NCBI GenBank assembly: GCA_002281555.1
Contig: NCGJ01000002.1
Coordinates: 186,001 to 250,000, forward strand
Length of the DNA stretch: 64,000 nucleotides
Origin: Hydrogenophilales bacterium 28-61-23
GTDB lineage: Bacteria; Pseudomonadota; Gammaproteobacteria; Burkholderiales; Thiobacillaceae
Reading direction: 5' to 3'
Shown here one piece after another: positions 37,503 to 45,309 of the stretch (position 1 is its first letter; every line of letters starts with the position of its first letter). The notes beneath the pieces are model-generated. The model worked only from the letters and a program-made list of their open reading frames with translations. It had not been told where the DNA came from and did not search any database. Both the position numbers and the translations under genes were made by a program.

Positions 37503-37568
37503 TGGTTCGGCGGGAAGGTGTGTTGTGATATAAACCACGGGTTTTTAAGGCTTTTCCGGAGCATCCAG

Positions 37569-38711
37569 ATGCAATCCAACAAGAAGAATTACGTCGTTGC
37601 CGGCTTGCTTGCGCTGCTCGCGGCGGGCTGTGGCAAACAACAAGAATCTGGCGACCAGATCGTCAAGATCGGCTCGGTGGCGCCGCTGACCGGCCCGCAA
37701 ACCCACATCGGCAAAGACAACGAAAACGGCGCGCGTCTGGCGGTGGATGAAATCAATGCCAAAGGGTTGCAACTGGGCGGCAAGAAAGTGAAGCTGGAAC
37801 TGTTGGGCGAGGACGATCAGGCCGAACCCAAGACCGCGACCATCGTCGCGCAGAAGCTGGTCGATGCCGGCGTGGTGGCTGTGATCGGCCATCTGAATTC
37901 GGGTACCAGCATCCCGGCCTCCAAGATTTACCACGATGCCGGCATTCCGCAGATTTCTCCTTCCGCTACCGCCGTGGCCTATACCGCGCAAGGTTACAAC
38001 ACCGCCTATCGGGTCATGGCCAACGACGCGCAGCAGGGCAAGGCGCTGGGACAGTACGCGGTGGGCAAGATGGGCGCGAAGAAGATCGCCATCGTCGACG
38101 ACCGCACCGCTTACGGCCAGGGCCTGGCCGATGAGTTCGAGAAGGCCGCCAAGGCGGCCGGCGGCGCAGTGGTGGCGCGTGAATTCACCAACGACAAGGC
38201 TACCGATTTCAGCGCGATTCTGACCAGCATCAAGGGCAAGACGCCGGATCTGATCTTCTTCGGCGGAATGGACCCGCAAGGCGGCCCGATGGCGAAACAG
38301 ATGAAAAGCCTGGGCCTGACCGCCAAACTGCTCGGCGGCGATGGCCTGCAGAATGTGAACTTCGTCAAACTGGCCGGCACGGATGCCGAGGGCGTGGTGG
38401 CTTCCTCGCCCGGTTTGCCGATCGATTCGATGCCCGGCGGCCCGGATTTCCGCAAGCGTTTCGAGGCCAAGTACGGCGTGATCCAGGTCTACGCGCCGTA
38501 TGCCTACGACGCCGTCTATGCGCTGGTGGAAGCCATGAAGCGCGCCGATTCGGCCGAACCGGCCAGGGTTCTGGCGGAACTGCCGAAGACCGATATCCAG
38601 GGCGTCAGCGGCCCGGTCAAGTTCGACGCCAAGGGCGATACCACCGGCGGCGCGGTGACGCTTTACCAGGTCAAGGGCGGCGCCTGGCAGGTGCTGGAAA
38701 CCGTCAAGTAA
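37569..38711 (+). CDS. livJ: Branched-chain amino acid ABC transporter substrate-binding lipoprotein
   Basis: The 380-residue product is a periplasmic-binding protein of the Leu/Ile/Val family (type I fold). A lipoprotein signal with lipobox LAAGC puts the acylated cysteine at residue 21, so it is membrane-anchored. The mature part begins IVKIGSVAPLTGPQTHIGKD, the family signature. The ATG at 37569 is chosen over a start 17 codons earlier because it directly precedes the signal sequence. It heads the complete livHMGF set. Real ligands could include other amino acids, amides or urea. Confidence 0.93.
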   Translation: MQSNKKNYVVAGLLALLAAGCGKQQESGDQIVKIGSVAPLTGPQTHIGKDNENGARLAVDEINAKGLQLGGKKVKLELLGEDDQAEPKTATIVAQKLVDAGVVAVIGHLNSGTSIPASKIYHDAGIPQISPSATAVAYTAQGYNTAYRVMANDAQQGKALGQYAVGKMGAKKIAIVDDRTAYGQGLADEFEKAAKAAGGAVVAREFTNDKATDFSAILTSIKGKTPDLIFFGGMDPQGGPMAKQMKSLGLTAKLLGGDGLQNVNFVKLAGTDAEGVVASSPGLPIDSMPGGPDFRKRFEAKYGVIQVYAPYAYDAVYALVEAMKRADSAEPARVLAELPKTDIQGVSGPVKFDAKGDTTGGAVTLYQVKGGAWQVLETVK

Positions 38712-38755
38712 TCGAATCTTCGGGGCGGGTCTGACCGCTCCCACAGCCGCATTCA

Positions 38756-39685
38756 ATGGACATCTTTACCCAACAGTTGGTCAACGGCCTCGTGCTGGGC
38801 AGCATCTATGCGCTGGTGGCGCTCGGCTACACCATGGTTTACGGCATTCTGGAGTTGATCAACTTCGCGCATGGCGAGGTGACCATGATCGGCGCGATGG
38901 TGGCGTTGAGCGTGATCGGTGTGCTGGCCGGCGTGGCGCCCGATCTGCCCGGCGTGCTGGTGGTTCTGGGCGGCATTCTGGTGGCGATTCCGGCCTGCAT
39001 GCTGCTGGCTTTCGGCATCGAGAAGATCGCTTACCGGCCTCTGCGCAAAGCACCCCGTCTGGCGCCGCTGATCACCGCCATCGGCGTCTCCATCATTCTG
39101 CAGAACCTGGCGATGCTGATCTGGGGCCGCCAGTACGTGTCTTTCCCGGAGATTCTGCCGACGACGAAATTCGAATTTCTCGGCGCGCATATCAGCCTGT
39201 TGCAGATCGCCATCGTGGTTCTGGCGCTGACCATCATGGCTGGGCTCTGGCTGCTGGTGGAGAAGACCCGGCTCGGTCGGGCCATGCGCGCCACCGCGCA
39301 ATCGCGCGAAGTGGCGGAGCTGATGGGCGTGAATGTGGATCGGGTTATTTCCGCCACCTTCATCATCGGCGCCGCCATCGCCGTGATCGCCGGGGTCATG
39401 GTCAGCGCTTATTACGGTCTGGCGCATTACTACATGGGCTTCATGCTTGGCCTGAAAGCCTTTTCGGCGGCGGTGCTGGGCGGCATCGGCAATATCGCCG
39501 GGGCGATGCTGGGTGGTCTGCTGCTGGGCGTGATCGAGGCGCTCGGCGCGGGTTACATCGGCGACATCACCGGCGGCTTCCTCGGCAGTCACTATCAGGA
39601 CGTGTTCGCGTTCTTCGTGCTGATCGGCGTGCTGGTGTTCCGGCCGTCCGGCCTGCTCGGCGAGCGCGTGGCCAATCGTGCGTAA
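38756..39685 (+). CDS. livH: Branched-chain amino acid ABC transporter permease LivH
   Basis: The 309-residue integral membrane protein starts MDIFTQQLVNGLVLGSIYALVALGYTMVYGI, matching LivH-type permeases. It has about eight hydrophobic helices and the GLKAFSAAVLGGIGNIAGAM coupling region that contacts the ATPases. The stop overlaps the livM GTG start by 8 bases, so it is translationally coupled. Confidence 0.95.
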   Translation: MDIFTQQLVNGLVLGSIYALVALGYTMVYGILELINFAHGEVTMIGAMVALSVIGVLAGVAPDLPGVLVVLGGILVAIPACMLLAFGIEKIAYRPLRKAPRLAPLITAIGVSIILQNLAMLIWGRQYVSFPEILPTTKFEFLGAHISLLQIAIVVLALTIMAGLWLLVEKTRLGRAMRATAQSREVAELMGVNVDRVISATFIIGAAIAVIAGVMVSAYYGLAHYYMGFMLGLKAFSAAVLGGIGNIAGAMLGGLLLGVIEALGAGYIGDITGGFLGSHYQDVFAFFVLIGVLVFRPSGLLGERVANRA

Positions 39686-40805
39686 CTCGGGCATGAATCG
39701 CGCGCTCGACGGCTTGCGCAAACGGCCGCGTCTGACCGCCATCCTGCTGGCAATTCTGCTCGCGGCCCTGCCCTTCATGATGGGTTTCGGCCTGGGCAAT
39801 TCCTGGGTGCGGGTGCTCGATTTCGTGCTGCTCTATGTGCTGCTGGCCATCGGCTTGAACATCGTGGTCGGCTATGCCGGCCTGCTCGATCTCGGTTATA
39901 TCGCTTTCTACGCGCTCGGCGCTTATCTCTATGCCTGGCTGGCCAGCCCGCATTTCGGCCTGCATCTGCCGTTCTGGCTGGTGTTGCCGATCGGCGCGAT
40001 GCTGGCCGGGCTGTTCGGCGTGTTGCTGGGCGCGCCCACGCTACGGTTGCGCGGCGATTACCTGGCCATCGTCACGCTCGGTTTCGGCGAGATCATCCGC
40101 ATCTTCATGAACAATCTGAACGCCCCGTTCAACCTGACCAACGGCCCGCAGGGCATGAACCTGATCGACCCGGTCAGCATCGCCGGCTTTTCTTTCGGCA
40201 AGCCGCTGCACGTTTTCGGCATGACATTTCCGCCGACTTACTTTTATTACTACCTGTTCCTTGCGTTCACGCTGCTCGCCATCTTCGTCGCGCTGCGCTT
40301 GCAGGATTCGCGCATCGGCCGCGCCTGGGCGGCGATCCGCGAGGACGAGATCGCCGCCGCGGCGATGGGCATCAACACGCGCAACATGAAATTGCTGGCA
40401 TTCGCCATGGGCGCCACCTTCGGAGGCCTGGCCGGCGGCTTGTTCGCGGCGTTTCAGGGCTTCATCAGCCCGGAAAGCTTCAACTTGTGGGAATCCATCC
40501 TGGTGCTGTGCATGATCGTGCTGGGCGGCATGGGCAATATTCCCGGCGTGATTCTCGGCGCGGTGTTGTTGACGGCGATTCCCGAAGCGCTGCGTTATCT
40601 GGGCGACTTCCAGCGCGCGACCCTGGGCCATGTCGCGGTCGATCCGGCCGATCTGCGTATGTTGCTGTTCGGCGTTGCGCTGGTCGCGATGATGCTGTTC
40701 CGGCCCGCCGGCTTGCTGCCGTCGCGTCAACGCAAGCGCGAGTTCGCGGCGGAGGACGGCGTCGCCGAGCAGGAGCAGGCCAGTCTTTACGACGCGCGGG
40801 CGTAG
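39678..40805 (+). CDS. livM: Branched-chain amino acid ABC transporter permease LivM
   Basis: The 375-residue permease contains the LivM signatures VGYAGLLDLGYIAFYALGAY and LRLRGDYLAIVTLGFGEIIR, and the ATPase-coupling segment ESILVLCMIVLGGMGNIPG. The frame opens at a GTG (39678) overlapping livH. An ATG five codons in (39693) is an equally good start. It is adjacent to livG with no gap. Confidence 0.95.
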   Translation: MRNSGMNRALDGLRKRPRLTAILLAILLAALPFMMGFGLGNSWVRVLDFVLLYVLLAIGLNIVVGYAGLLDLGYIAFYALGAYLYAWLASPHFGLHLPFWLVLPIGAMLAGLFGVLLGAPTLRLRGDYLAIVTLGFGEIIRIFMNNLNAPFNLTNGPQGMNLIDPVSIAGFSFGKPLHVFGMTFPPTYFYYYLFLAFTLLAIFVALRLQDSRIGRAWAAIREDEIAAAAMGINTRNMKLLAFAMGATFGGLAGGLFAAFQGFISPESFNLWESILVLCMIVLGGMGNIPGVILGAVLLTAIPEALRYLGDFQRATLGHVAVDPADLRMLLFGVALVAMMLFRPAGLLPSRQRKREFAAEDGVAEQEQASLYDARA

Positions 40806-41582
40806 ATGAGGACGGCCATGGCGTTGCTGAGCGTCGAGAAAGTGACCAAACGCTTCGGCGGCCTCGCGGCGCTGGAGGATGTTTCGCTATCGGTACGGGC
40901 CGGTGAAATCTACGGCCTGATCGGGCCCAATGGCGCGGGCAAAACCACGTTGTTCAACTGCATGACCGGTCTCTACACGGCCACGACGGGCGCGGTGCGT
41001 CTGGATGGCGCTCCGGTGCAGGGGCTTAAGCCGCACCAGATCGTGAAGTTGGGCTTTGCACGCACGTTCCAGAACATCCGTTTGTTCGCCAACATGACCG
41101 CGCTGGAAAACGTCATGGTCGGTCGCCATGTCCGAACGCGCGCCAATGTGCTGGGCGCGGTGCTGCGCTGCGCCGGAACGCGCGCCGAAGAGGCCGCCAT
41201 CCGCGACAGGGCTCATGAGCTCATGAAATATGTCGGGCTCGCCGGCAAAGGCCGCACCCTCGCCAACCACCTGGCTTATGGCGATCAGCGCCGCCTGGAA
41301 ATCGCCCGGGCGCTGGCGACCGAGCCGAAACTGCTCGCCCTTGATGAGCCTGTCGCCGGCATGAATCCAGCCGAGCGCGTGCAGATGGGGGAACTGTTCC
41401 GAAAATTGCGCGATGGCGGCGTCACGTTGTTGTTGATCGAACACGACGTGAAACTGGTCATGGGCTTGTGCGACCGCGTCGCGGTGCTCGATTACGGCCG
41501 CAAGATCGCCGAGGGGCCGGCTGAGGAAGTACGCAAAAATCCCGCTGTCATCGCCGCTTATCTCGGAGGCGAATCGGCATGA
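40806..41582 (+). CDS. livG: Branched-chain amino acid ABC transporter ATPase LivG
   Basis: The 258-residue ATPase has Walker A GPNGAGKTTLFN and the family-specific GFARTFQNIRLF. The signature is degenerate (YGDQRRLEIARAL, where LSGGQ is replaced, as is usual in LivG), followed by Walker B LLALDEPVAGMNP. It pairs with LivF to power the importer. An internal ATG at 40818 could be the true start. The stop overlaps livF by 4 bases. Confidence 0.95.
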   Translation: MRTAMALLSVEKVTKRFGGLAALEDVSLSVRAGEIYGLIGPNGAGKTTLFNCMTGLYTATTGAVRLDGAPVQGLKPHQIVKLGFARTFQNIRLFANMTALENVMVGRHVRTRANVLGAVLRCAGTRAEEAAIRDRAHELMKYVGLAGKGRTLANHLAYGDQRRLEIARALATEPKLLALDEPVAGMNPAERVQMGELFRKLRDGGVTLLLIEHDVKLVMGLCDRVAVLDYGRKIAEGPAEEVRKNPAVIAAYLGGESA

Positions 41583-42286
41583 GTCTGCTCATGGCTCAAG
41601 GCATCAAGATCAGCTACGGCGGTATTCATGCCGTGCGTGGCATTGATTTTGAAGTCGCCAAAGGCGAGCTGGTCTGTCTTATCGGCGCCAATGGCGCGGG
41701 CAAAAGCAGCACCTTGAAAGGCTTGCTTGGTCTGGTATCCCATAGTGGCGACCTGAGATTCAATGGCGAACGCCTCACCGGCCTGGCAACTCATGCAATC
41801 GTCGCCCGCGGCCTCGCGCTGGTGCCGGAGGGGCGTGGCATCTTCGGGCGTCTGACGGTCGCGGAAAACCTCGATATGGGCGCCTATTTGCGCCGCGACA
41901 GGGACGGCATCAAGGCTGATCGGACACGCGCTTACGAACTGTTTCCCCGTCTCGCCGAACGTAACAAGCAACTGGCCGGAACGCTGTCTGGCGGAGAACA
42001 GCAGATGTTGGCCATCGCCCGCGCCCTGATGGGGCGTCCGTCCCTGTTGTTGCTGGATGAGCCGAGCATGGGATTGGCCCCGCTGATGGTGCGCAAGATA
42101 TACGAGACCATCGCTCGAATTGCTCAAGAGGGCGTTACTTTATTGGTGGTCGAGCAGAATGCGCATCTTGCTTTGCAAATCAGTCAGCGCGCCTATGTCA
42201 TGGAAAGCGGGGTCATCCGCTTGTCAGGTCCATCGCATGCGTTGGCTCGCGATCCGCAGATTCGTGCCGCCTATCTTGGCGATTGA
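41579..42286 (+). CDS. livF: Branched-chain amino acid ABC transporter ATPase LivF
   Basis: The 235-residue ATPase shows Walker A GANGAGKSSTLKG, the LivF-specific LVPEGRGIFGRLTV, signature LSGGEQQMLAIARALM and Walker B LLLLDEPSMGLAP. It ends the livJHMGF operon (ATGA overlap with livG). No terminator is obvious in the 170 bases before the next gene. Confidence 0.96.
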   Translation: MSLLMAQGIKISYGGIHAVRGIDFEVAKGELVCLIGANGAGKSSTLKGLLGLVSHSGDLRFNGERLTGLATHAIVARGLALVPEGRGIFGRLTVAENLDMGAYLRRDRDGIKADRTRAYELFPRLAERNKQLAGTLSGGEQQMLAIARALMGRPSLLLLDEPSMGLAPLMVRKIYETIARIAQEGVTLLVVEQNAHLALQISQRAYVMESGVIRLSGPSHALARDPQIRAAYLGD

Positions 42287-42456: not shown

Positions 42457-43113
42457 ATGAAGAAGTTTTCCGCCCTGATCCTTGCTCTGATCGCCCAATC
42501 CGCGTTCGCCAATGGCGCCGCCACCCCGGAATCCACCGCCGCCCAGTTGCTGGATCCCGCCAAGGTTGCTGACGTCGCCAAAGACCCGAAGGCTGCCGTT
42601 GCCGCCATGACCAATATGATGGACCCGGCTACCGCCATCATCCTGATGCAGAAGGGCATGGACCCCGCCACCTTCACCAAAATGGCCCAGGCTGGCATGT
42701 CTCCCGAGATACTGAAAGCCTATGCTGGTTTCCTCGACCCCAACATGTACGCCAAGTGGCTGGCCGCTTCCATGGACCCGAATTTCTACACGGCTGCCAT
42801 GGCCCCGCTGATGAACCCCAACATGTACATGAAGTGGCTGTCCGCTCCTATGGATCCCCGCGTTCTGCAGATGATGATGGCTCCCATGAATCCCAGCATG
42901 TACGCCAACTGGGCGATGGCTCCCATGGCCCCCGCCAACATGAACCTGATGATGGCTCCGCTGAACCCCAACCTCTACACCCAATGGGCTGGCGCCGCGG
43001 CCAATCCCGCCACCTATGGCGCTTTCGGTGCGTTCATGAACCCCGCCACCTACGGCAATATGGCGAACCCGTTCGCCGGCTTCATGCCCGTGCCCGCGCC
43101 TGCCGCCAAGTAA
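42457..43113 (+). CDS. Exported Met/Pro-rich tandem-repeat protein (unknown family)
   Basis: The 218-residue product has a signal peptide (about 1-18, cleavage after SAFA). A repeat array follows from residue 32 to about 205. About 14 units of 12-13 residues each open with [ML][DN]P, and alternate units carry a Y..W or Y/F motif, e.g. LDPNMYAKWLAAS, MNPNMYMKWLSAP, MNPSMYANWAMAP, LNPNLYTQWAGAA. The mature protein has over 20 methionines and no cysteine. There is a good AGGAG ribosome site 10 bases before the ATG. I recognise no family. The period and composition suggest a solenoid-like or surface-associated fold, or metal (copper) binding by Met; both are guesses. It is followed by a strong terminator and a diverged paralogue. 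Confidence 0.85.
   Translation: MKKFSALILALIAQSAFANGAATPESTAAQLLDPAKVADVAKDPKAAVAAMTNMMDPATAIILMQKGMDPATFTKMAQAGMSPEILKAYAGFLDPNMYAKWLAASMDPNFYTAAMAPLMNPNMYMKWLSAPMDPRVLQMMMAPMNPSMYANWAMAPMAPANMNLMMAPLNPNLYTQWAGAAANPATYGAFGAFMNPATYGNMANPFAGFMPVPAPAAK
42550..43071 (+). repeat. Array of 36-39 bp degenerate coding repeats
   Basis: The DNA encodes about 14 consecutive 12-13 residue units beginning [ML][DN]P. The nucleotide repeats are degenerate, with synonymous and non-synonymous differences between units, so the array is old rather than a recent slippage product. Confidence 0.75.
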
Positions 43114-43138
43114 GTTATTGAGTAAGCGGTAGTTGCAC

Positions 43139-43174
43139 AAAAGGGCGGAACCGCAAGGTTCCGCCCTTTTTGTT
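43139..43174 (+). terminator. Intrinsic terminator between the two repeat-protein genes
   Basis: AAAAGGGCGGAACC and GGTTCCGCCCTTTT form a 14-base-pair perfect stem closed by a GCAA tetraloop, followed by TGTTTTT. It lies 25 bases after the first repeat-protein stop, so the second paralogue probably has its own promoter. Confidence 0.93.
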
Positions 43175-43241
43175 TTTGGAGCCAATCGCCATGTTAAGAT
43201 AATTCTAATATTGCTATGTCTATGTTAATCATAGGGTTTTT

Positions 43242-43940
43242 ATGATGATGTACCGTTTTCTTTTTACATGCGCGATTCTGGCCTGGTGTTCAACATCACA
43301 TGCTGAGTCCAGCTCGAATTTGGAACTTACGCCGCAGGGCAAACACGGCCTGCAAAAGGTGATCCTGGCCGATGGTAGTGTGGTTGATCGGCTGACATTG
43401 CCCGCTGCCGCGAGTGGATCAAGGAAAGCGGGTTTCCCCGCGACTCCGGAGGCATGGCTGGCGCGCATGATTGATCCTACTAAGAATGGCCTTGCCGCGA
43501 AGAATCCGGAGTTGTTTGCCGAGTGGCTGGATGCGGTTACTGAACCCCGTTTTATGACGGCCCTTGCCACGGTTGCGATGCGCCCAGAATCCTATTCCCT
43601 ATCCCTGGGCAAAGTGGCGAATCCCGCCACGTTCAGAAACTGGGCTGAATTTGCCGATCCCCAAGTGTATTTGCGCTGGATGTCGGCTGGAATCGACCCT
43701 CGCTTCTATCAGGCAATATTTAACCGGATGACCGAGAGTGGAAAACTTCGGCGCTGGGGCTTTTATCAAGAGGTGCGCTCGTCGGCGGCTTCTGACCCAG
43801 ACGCCGGTCTGCCTGGCCAACCATCCGGTCAAGAGGGAAATGGAAAGCCTGCCCGAGCGAAGCAAGAGTGGTTGCAGATGCCCGCGCGCTCGACTCAATC
43901 CAATCCCTGGTTATCGAACAGCGTGAATTACCGCTATTGA
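43242..43940 (+). CDS. Exported repeat protein, diverged paralogue of the preceding gene
   Basis: The 232-residue product has a signal peptide ending near SHA (residue 21) and a non-repeat N-terminal segment. From about 65 to 163 it has eight units of the same 11-13 residue pattern as the gene upstream, e.g. NPELFAEWLDAVT, NPATFRNWAEF, DPQVYLRWMSAG and DPRFYQAIFNRM. It has far fewer methionines and a charged, Ser/Gln-rich C-terminal tail without repeats. It starts with three consecutive ATGs, and the exact start is uncertain by one or two codons. Function is unknown. The pairing with the Met-rich paralogue suggests a shared structure or complex. Confidence 0.8.
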   Translation: MMMYRFLFTCAILAWCSTSHAESSSNLELTPQGKHGLQKVILADGSVVDRLTLPAAASGSRKAGFPATPEAWLARMIDPTKNGLAAKNPELFAEWLDAVTEPRFMTALATVAMRPESYSLSLGKVANPATFRNWAEFADPQVYLRWMSAGIDPRFYQAIFNRMTESGKLRRWGFYQEVRSSAASDPDAGLPGQPSGQEGNGKPARAKQEWLQMPARSTQSNPWLSNSVNYRY

Positions 43941-43986: not shown

Positions 43987-44394
43987 TTACAGCGCCAACC
44001 AGCGCAGCCAGACACGCAACTTGCGCCAATCGCCGCTTGGCATGCTGTCCGACAGAATTACAAAATTCCTGAGCCGGCGTCGATCCAAGCCGGCAATTCG
44101 CAGTACCGTGCATCCGGGCAAGACTACGCTGGAAGTGGCGAGCCGCACATTATTCCAGCGATTGTTCCGCCAAATTTCGAGCGCTCCGTCTTGGCCGCAT
44201 CTCAGGCGGATACGCGGAGAAGCTCGCCAATAATAAACAACGCTGGGTACCAATAAGGCCAGACCCGCACCTCTGAAAATCGCGGGCAGATCGGCGAGGA
44301 AAACGGCCATTACGGCGAGAAGATGTGTGGCGGCGAGAAAAATGCGTCGTTTGTTTGAGTCGCCGATGTCTACGATAAGAGGCAGTTCAAACAT
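43987..44394 (-). CDS. YgfX-family membrane protein
   Basis: The 135-residue protein has two hydrophobic helices near the N-terminus (about 17-52). A soluble beta-rich part follows with the family pattern LEIWRNNRWNNVRL, then SSVVLPGCTVLR and a final SMPSGDWRKLRVWLRWL. This matches YgfX (CptA), described in E. coli as a toxin-like inhibitor of cell division proteins encoded next to sdhE; no sdhE is present here. The ATG at 44394 lies 13 bases after the protease gene and gives the expected N-terminus; longer in-frame starts overlap the protease. Confidence 0.75.
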   Translation of the reverse strand: MFELPLIVDIGDSNKRRIFLAATHLLAVMAVFLADLPAIFRGAGLALLVPSVVYYWRASPRIRLRCGQDGALEIWRNNRWNNVRLATSSVVLPGCTVLRIAGLDRRRLRNFVILSDSMPSGDWRKLRVWLRWLAL

Positions 44395-44407
44395 TTTGCC
44401 GCCGGAT

Positions 44408-45271
44408 TTATTTTCTATTGCGCGTTGTGGGCGTTGATGCCAAGCCCAATTCAGCGCTCGCGTTACCTTGTCTTGAGGCATTTTGAAGCCCGGCTTTATC
44501 CAACAGATCCTGAACATATTTCGCCGGAATGGCGTAGGTAATGCCGCTTGGATCGCGTAGCGCATTCTCTTTCGCGCCTTTTACAAAGACCGAATTGATC
44601 ACGCCGATAACGGCACCTGTATTGCCATCATAGAGAGGACTGCCGCTATTGCCTGGATAGGCCGTGGCATCGAGCTGAAACATCAGGAACGGGTTGTCGG
44701 CGCGCTTGATGAGCTTGGCGGTGAGGTTTTTGACTCCGGGTGGCGGGCTGAATATCGGGGCTATGGCGGCCAGTCCGGCGCGGTGCGTTGCGGGGTACAG
44801 TCCGAGTACCGCGCCGATCGGATAGCCGGTGAAGTAATAGAGTTGTCCTTCGCGCGCTTGCGCTGAATTAGCCAACCTGAGTGGCGATATGGCCTCGCCC
44901 TCGATCTTGAGCAGGAGCAGGTCGTGCTCGGGGTCGTCGGCCAGTTTTTCTGCTTTGCGTACGATGACGCCATCCGGGCCGCGCAGGAATACCGCAAGCG
45001 ATTCGCCTTTTTCTTCTTCCATCAACAAGGGGGCGACATGGGTATTGGTGACGACATAATGGCCGTCCGCTACCACAAACCCGGTGCCAAGCAGCTTGAT
45101 GCGAGGGTTGCGCAAGGGATGCACCGTACCCACGCCGGCAATGGAGACTTTAATCTGCGGCAGGATGTCAGTGATGTCGGCGCGAGCGGGTTGCGGAGTC
45201 GCGCTCAATAAAATGCAGAATCCTGTCGATAACAGAAACGTCGTCAGTTGTATGGGCATGTTGGGCTTCAT
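44408..45271 (-). CDS. Exported trypsin-like serine protease (S1 family)
   Basis: The 287-residue product has a signal peptide (about 1-31, ending ATPQPARA) and a chymotrypsin-fold domain. The catalytic triad is visible as THVAPL (His), DPEHDLLLL (Asp) and the serine in YPGNSGSPLYDG. No PDZ domain is present, unlike DegP/DegQ. An upstream ATG at 45307 is possible, but the one at 45271 directly precedes the signal. The periplasmic substrate is unknown. It is likely co-transcribed with the YgfX-like gene. Confidence 0.87.
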   Translation of the reverse strand: MKPNMPIQLTTFLLSTGFCILLSATPQPARADITDILPQIKVSIAGVGTVHPLRNPRIKLLGTGFVVADGHYVVTNTHVAPLLMEEEKGESLAVFLRGPDGVIVRKAEKLADDPEHDLLLLKIEGEAISPLRLANSAQAREGQLYYFTGYPIGAVLGLYPATHRAGLAAIAPIFSPPPGVKNLTAKLIKRADNPFLMFQLDATAYPGNSGSPLYDGNTGAVIGVINSVFVKGAKENALRDPSGITYAIPAKYVQDLLDKAGLQNASRQGNASAELGLASTPTTRNRK

Positions 45272-45309
45272 CGGCGTTTTATCGCGTACTAGACGCAGTG
45301 TCGCCATGC

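Follow-up and report, generated by a model that had tools for sequence, protein, structure and literature searches.

Sox systems lacking SoxCD, and flavocytochrome c sulfide dehydrogenase (FCSD), leave zero-valent sulfur in the periplasm. Among proteins built of tandem helices, TPR, HEAT, Sel1 and PPR units are about 34-40 residues long, whilst perilipins and phasins, the coats of lipid droplets and granules, are cytoplasmic and carry other repeats. The genome paper of Thiobacillus thioparus reports no soxCD and transient elemental sulfur; its passages on that sulfur place it in the medium and on colonies, mention no intracellular globule, and propose that an unidentified protein may help release elemental sulfur, which may explain the sulfur deposits (PMC5248467). 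In the purple sulfur bacterium Allochromatium vinosum, SgpD is described as a Sec-exported, periplasmic protein found on the sulfur globules, with regularly spaced prolines and almost restricted to the Chromatiaceae (PMC10386293).

Here, we describe an unnamed, multi-copy and probably exported family of helical-repeat proteins in sulfur oxidizers, the existence of which is well supported by sequence comparison. Two members, A and B, lie side by side in the window (the whole stretch of 64,000 nucleotides analysed). By description, the A/B family resembles SgpA, SgpB, SgpC and SgpD of A. vinosum in its signal peptides, putative periplasmic location, several genes, repetitive sequence, regular prolines and occurrence in sulfur oxidizers (PMC10386293). 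The two differ in proline pattern (P-x2-P-x2-P in SgpD versus one proline per 12-13 residues here) and in predicted structure, the AlphaFold model described for SgpD having two helices and large low-confidence loops (PMC10386293) compared with 15 helices in A. Since the proline spacing differs and the likeness is one of description, membership in the Sgp group is not claimed; the sulfur globule proteins would be the nearest known kind in role.

Protein A (42457..43113, + strand; 218 aa in the ORF listing) is, by composition, a Met-rich repeat protein and is probably exported. Residues 1-19 (42457..42513, +) form a predicted Sec signal peptide, judged by eye, and the repeat region (42553..43065, +) consists of units mostly 12-13 residues long that open [DNSA]P, with boundaries also set by eye. 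Eight [DN]P-to-[DN]P steps of 12 or 13 residues occur in A, compared with a mean of 0.07 in shuffled sequences (0/20000 shuffles reached 8), and Pro-Pro spacings of 12/13 are in excess as well (0/20000 shuffles). In its middle part, alternate units carry Y..W, and the four Trp (residues 101, 127, 152 and 177) are spaced by 26, 25 and 25 residues, so the two-unit superperiod proposed in an earlier sequence-only reading of this DNA is real. No tandem repeat was found at the DNA level (0 rows). A contains 12.8% Met and no Cys, and the mature protein is 10% charged (KRDE) and 68% AILMFWYVP. Orthologues of the A type, with 61-90% identity over the best segment, were found in 21 of 25 named loci (L037-L057), and across 25 rows of A orthologues the Pro, Trp and Tyr columns are 94-98% conserved.

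Protein B (43242..43940, +; 232 aa), recognised in the ORF listing by A-query and profile matches, is a Met-poor, diverged paralogue of A. It matches the A query at E 1.9e-11 and profile A2 at E 4.4e-58, the latter profile including B itself. Following a predicted signal peptide (residues 1-22; 43242..43307, +; by eye), its repeat region (43443..43766, +; end by eye) comprises eight units opening xP, the number given in the sequence-only reading, counted from residue 68 at steps of 10, 10, 13, 13, 13, 12 and 13 and followed by GKLRRW. The D or N before P is kept in some units only. Two [DN]P steps of 12 or 13 residues remain, versus a shuffled mean of 0.02 (8/20000 shuffles), with Pro-Pro spacings of 12/13 again in excess (30/20000 shuffles). 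The 12-13 residue repeat first reported by eye in A and B is thus real and far above chance, as is the reported contrast between a Met-rich and a Met-poor protein (12.8% versus 3.9% Met). Both Cys of B sit inside its predicted signal peptide and hence mature A and mature B both lack Cys, which upholds another point of that reading. Homologues of B keep the repeat-containing middle and a conserved C-terminal stretch that ends YRY in most rows. In a tree of 30 chosen rows, B paired with its paralogue C25 (99/97) and this pair was joined next by the OmpA-fused C3 type (93/86), with A placed elsewhere; support was weak at 9 of the 27 inner branches, and the composition of the B rows is unusual.

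The two genes are separated by an intrinsic-terminator-like hairpin of 14 pairs followed by a T-run (43139..43170, +; hairpin scan), in agreement with the terminator noted there before; four such sites occurred in the stretch scanned, versus 1.8 expected from shuffles. Upstream of A are branched-chain amino-acid ABC transport genes (37518..42286, +; from the ORF listing), which we take to be livK/H/M/G/F-like. Homologues of livM/livG/livF were found upstream of A in 11 of the 21 named loci that have an A orthologue, and a B homologue came next in 11. Downstream of B, on the opposite strand, are genes for a CptA-like protein (43987-44565 (-); PF07254, E 2.4e-15) and a trypsin-like protease (44408-45307 (-); PF13365, E 4.6e-22).

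AlphaFold2 modelled mature A (25 rows) as 15 helices, approximately one per unit (pLDDT 76, pTM 0.59), with pLDDT dropping to 45 at the C-terminus. The model of B had a pLDDT of 52, its helices lying with low confidence in the middle, repeat-bearing region. Given this difference, A is likely to be an alpha-solenoid with one short helix per unit, whilst the same fold is suggested for B. The solenoid with a two-unit superperiod envisaged in the sequence-only reading is therefore predicted for A, which modelled as helical, and stands less firmly for B, which modelled poorly. Comparison of the A model with the PDB by Foldseek gave no match at E 10 or better, and the best hit of a PDB sequence search with A was at E 0.86. 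TPR, HEAT, Sel1 and PPR proteins are alike in having tandem helices packed in a solenoid (predicted for A), but the A/B unit of 12-13 residues, or 25-26 per hairpin, is shorter than theirs; no match to TPR, HEAT, Sel1 or another named repeat was found for A (Pfam and Foldseek) or for B and five further copies described below (Pfam). If correct, the helical unit would rank as very short for a solenoid repeat; Pfam matched the repeats of none of the seven, and Foldseek found no counterpart of A in the PDB.

This agrees with the earlier statement that no described family has the repeat: within the repeats of the seven members, no Pfam family scored over its cut-off, and NCBIfam returned nothing significant for A or B. 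No publication on this repeat family was found in a literature search of titles and abstract openings, which is not proof of absence from print. Perilipins and phasins, repeated helices over a hydrophobic deposit, serve as a working analogy; a match to a phasin-like family had been named in the earlier reading as something that would settle the fold, and none of the seven members matched a Pfam phasin or similar granule-coat domain. A Pfam TetR_C_27 match to A (E 0.0037, under the family cut-off) was taken as chance, and JmjN and other weak Pfam matches to relatives as short helical similarity. The same was concluded for the central core domain of GerD (PF17898), a spore-germination protein by its Pfam title. 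One repeat protein of G515, a genome outside the class (L140:8312-9337), passed the GerD cut-off over 67 residues (31.5 versus 29.5 bits); another G515 protein and paralogue C7 had weaker matches under it, and A, B, C27, C10, C3 and C25 had none. In the two G515 repeat proteins (L140:8312-9337 and L141:6778-7575 (-)), steps of 12 and 13 residues alternate almost strictly, which makes them a clear example of the two-unit hairpin.

A and B are two of seven copies in the window's genome (3.51 Mb, 30 contigs), a multiplicity that the sequence-only reading had missed. The A query recovered A, B and five others, and profile A2, which includes all seven among its rows, recovered the same set. All seven open with a signal-peptide-like stretch, judged by eye. 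Paralogue C3 (L064:7537-9006; 489 aa) carries a C-terminal OmpA family peptidoglycan-binding domain (PF00691, E 3.7e-17), which is absent from A and B, and a Pro/Ala-rich linker joins its repeat domain to the OmpA domain. This fusion supports an envelope location for the A/B family, and the earlier term 'envelope protein' fits both it and the signal peptides seen by eye. In many relatives the family match lies in an open frame of ~450-650 codons, which suggests that fusions of the C3 type may be common among them. A soxB gene is on C3's contig, 19 kb from C3. Composition varies between copies. C27 contains 18.1% Met and no Cys, whilst B, C3 and C25 retain the repeat at 1.7-4.1% Met. Charged residues make up 20% of B and C25 compared with 10% of mature A, showing that hydrophobicity is not uniform across the family.

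The C10-type member lies between mla lipid-transport genes (MlaE and MlaD by Pfam) and a cysS-like gene (region L063:2780-9041), an arrangement that looks alike by eye in two named relatives (L060 and L061). The C10-type gene of Parasulfuritortus cantonensis (L061:4905-5704) gave two overlapping match pieces and its open frame ends early, reflecting a frameshift or a sequencing error.

The distribution of the family was investigated at three scales. The close-relative sample contained 61 genomes, 37 from the family-level group of the window's genome and 24 from other families of the order. Profile searches found the family in 29/61, all inside the 37-genome group, with 4 to 10 matches per holder; holders included all 23 genomes of the window's genus-level group and 6 of the 14 others in the family-level group, but none of the 24 genomes from other families. 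The named loci belong to Thiobacillus, Thiobacillaceae, Hydrogenophilales, Gallionellaceae-labelled and other bins and Parasulfuritortus cantonensis, and because of these taxa the family-level group is very probably Thiobacillaceae. Within a class-wide sample of 369 genomes, profile A2 identified eight holders and profile A3, built from seven of the new members, the same eight; profile A4, for a related type with MNPATY units, gave six holders, of which one (G274) was new. This brings the total to 9/369, the window's genome included. The family thereby occurs in 29/37 genomes of one family-level group and in eight further genomes of the class. Profile A2 (beta set) aligned with A3 (gamma set) at a probability of 99.6 (hhalign, E 6e-25) and with A4 at 98.9 (E 2e-17), scores that low-complexity repeats can inflate. 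The phylum sample (200 genomes) returned the window's genome, G515 from another class with five matches, and a weak match in G560 (E 1.5e-7), where the retrieved region contained no ORF that could be recognised as carrying the repeat. A match in G038 (E 9.5e-4) was rejected, as the frames there lack the repeat and the profile finds none in that genome. The plasmid search gave no match, and of 21 pattern matches in viral contigs none was confirmed.

Holder genomes were rich in genes for reduced-sulfur oxidation, a trait known here from genes alone, in both the class and close-relative samples. At E 1e-20, dsrA was found in 119/369 class genomes (112 over the cut-off), the model used (TIGR02064) making no distinction between oxidative and reductive dsrA. 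It was present in eight of the nine class-sample holders, all eight over the curated cut-off; soxB was over its cut-off in 8/9, and all nine had one or both (G153 has soxB without dsrA, G271 dsrA without soxB). With the window's genome left out, dsrA occurred in 7/8 holders versus 118/368 genomes overall (one-sided Fisher test, p 0.0018), a test that ignores relatedness, three families contributing two each of the eight holders. Amongst the 29 close holders, dsrA was found in 25 (23 over the cut-off), the four without it being 58-89% complete, and soxY in 26 (20 over the cut-off). All had dsrA and/or soxY except G012, which is 58% complete and has neither. soxC was found in 0/29 at E 1e-30. 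For the window's genome itself, SoxB was well over the curated cut-off and SoxY under it (97.7 versus 125 bits). In 14 named control genomes, dsrA matched in two, soxC in two, soxB in five and soxY in none, with no match over the curated cut-off.

The link is not a strict one. All eight non-holders of the same family-level group have dsrA, so that sulfur oxidation does not require the family. By the profiles used, it is missing from 111 of the 119 dsrA genomes in the class sample, and soxY matches occur in 15/24 genomes from other families of the order, where members occur in none. The link of the family to sulfur oxidation is well supported.

Other members are also co-located with sox, sulfide dehydrogenase and dsrE2 genes, which the sequence-only reading had missed; profiles were run on selected neighbouring genes, and many of the neighbour names and unit boundaries were assigned by eye. 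In G036, the order is FCSD flavoprotein, member, soxY (20 bp on), soxZ and DUF302. In G017, it is soxY, soxZ, a PAS-type gene (by eye), rhodanese, DUF302, member, cytochrome c, FCSD and napA. G030 (L131) has soxZ, DUF302, member and FCSD by profile in an order like that of G017, with cytochrome c by eye and soxY also arranged as in G017; a second G030 cluster (L132) was counted from profile-match coordinates, no clean member ORF being read there. soxY, DUF302 and a member are together in G013. Across the 29 close holders, at least five member-soxY pairs fall within 6 kb, compared with 1.24 expected (Poisson, P 0.009), a moderate excess; these counts are lower bounds read by hand, two pairs come from one genome, the clusters look homologous and the Poisson model ignores relatedness. 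A sixth pair, in G020, lies at 7.5 kb, outside the 6 kb count, and there a soxY fragment is alone in the neighbourhood.

Sulfur genes also accompany members in more distant genomes. In G074, a member, Sulf_transp, DUF302, soxZ and soxY occur within 9 kb, with TusA and DsrE2 farther on and one neighbour of the LTXXQ (Spy/CpxP) group. G274 has its MNPATY-type relative with RuBisCO, DUF302, Sulf_transp and SoxB, and G515 a regular 12/13-residue repeat protein with Sulf_transp, DsrE2 and two FadL-like proteins. Of the seven gammaproteobacterial-type holders whose member surroundings were read (mostly by eye), two had a recognised sulfur gene close to the member, and members in G104, G245, G385, G147 and G271 had no sulfur gene adjoining by eye, save an NrfD-like gene in G271.

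A DUF302 (PF03625) protein was found by profile near the repeat protein in six genomes (L085:11672-12703 (-), L122:7438-8523, L128:9790-10506, L129:6469-7200 (-), L130:6529-7254 (-) and L131:6744-7487 (-)), and it may be a partner of the repeat protein. DUF302 genes are also described in sox operons of other sulfur oxidizers (PMC5248467).

In the window's genome, no recognised sulfur genes adjoin A and B, which have transport genes instead, and none was recognised in the ORF listing ~7-8 kb to each side of the five other copies, whose few profile-checked neighbours were a metallo-beta-lactamase-fold gene (C7), a short-chain dehydrogenase (C27) and MlaE/MlaD (C10). In the tree, C27 forms a clade (100/99) with the members found in the sox clusters of G013, G017 and G030, and the G036 member falls outside it. 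The gammaproteobacterial-type member of G104 is likewise beside a branched-chain-type ABC transporter (region L083:7042-12748), recalling A by its liv genes; this resemblance may be coincidence, or the place of A may mean something else.

Our main reading, with a probability of roughly 0.45, is that these proteins are exported alpha-solenoids which, in the periplasm, coat or scaffold zero-valent sulfur or polysulfide, or the enzymes of that sulfur. Every 12-13 residue unit would fold as one short helix beginning with [DN]P, and two units would make a hairpin of 25-26 residues. The material handled would be the zero-valent sulfur or polysulfide left in the periplasm by Sox without SoxCD together with FCSD, and rows of Met, Trp, Tyr, Phe and Ala would make up the face on which sulfur is bound or adjacent solenoids pack together. 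The paralogue with the OmpA domain would anchor this assembly to peptidoglycan, and the Met-rich A and Met-poor B would be two among its seven components. A bolder and rather doubtful version is that this previously unrecognised family of folded alpha-solenoids forms the coat around zero-valent sulfur in sulfur oxidizers other than purple sulfur bacteria, its paralogues being graded and its OmpA-tethered member pinning the deposit to the cell wall. Either would bear on how bacteria without SoxCD keep and re-use their own elemental sulfur, for which an exported multi-copy family tied to sox/sulfide-dehydrogenase genes in several lineages offers concrete candidates.

Much of the same evidence could be read differently. 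Alpha-solenoids are commonly protein-binding platforms, member genes are tightly clustered with those for Sox, sulfide dehydrogenase and DUF302 proteins, and conservation of P, W, Y and D points to a defined surface, all of which would suit scaffolds or chaperones that hold SoxYZ, FCSD and DUF302 together with no elemental-sulfur contact. We consider this unlikely, as none of the seven copies in the window's genome is by a recognised sox or fcc gene and mature A has low charge, although B and C25 have twice as much. The OmpA fusion of C3 and the place of the C10 type between mla and cysS-like genes would also be expected of a general envelope-structure protein, associated with peptidoglycan or the outer membrane and incidentally frequent in sulfur oxidizers. 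However, it would leave unexplained why members of several lineages lie near sox, sulfide dehydrogenase, dsrE2 and Sulf_transp genes, making this explanation distinctly improbable.

Met-rich proteins that bind or deliver copper(I), as suggested in the sequence-only reading, would account for the high Met content of A and C27, Cys being in neither, and for the LTXXQ-group neighbour in G074, and in five of A's 27 Met columns, 90% or more of the residues are Met. Nevertheless, Met columns across the 25 A-type rows average 70% conservation, well below the Pro, Trp and Tyr columns, Leu or Ile accounts for 117 of 194 replacements, and in a 16-row family set the start Met is the sole nearly invariant one; B, C3 and C25 keep the repeat with little Met. 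With no Met among the 21 invariant columns of the A alignment, yet five at 90% or above, copper binding is unlikely for A, and as a role for the family we regard it as very unlikely. Of the sequence-only reading, the unnamed family, the solenoid for A and the envelope location are supported, and copper(I) binding as the family's role is not. Least probable is that the protein is disordered or of low complexity and its repeat lacks a fixed fold, for which the poor model of B and the low-confidence end of A speak, together with the over-confidence of AlphaFold2 on repeats, in the cited work demonstrated for beta-solenoids (PMC11795689). This is at odds with the position-specific conservation of P, W and Y across 25 sequences and the consistent helix pattern of the A model.

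Further repeat proteins were observed beside members. Near soxYZ in G074, a 27% Met protein of MNPM repeats (L085:10598-11590 (-)) contains a CAACH motif, which could bind heme. A second, very regular MNPATYMQWMNP-type repeat family (L085:9081-9710 (-), L085:9815-10498, L087:807-1433 and L088:1616-2218) adjoins members in G074, G147 and G271, and carries an FN[WF]FD motif near its end that is also present in the C10 type.
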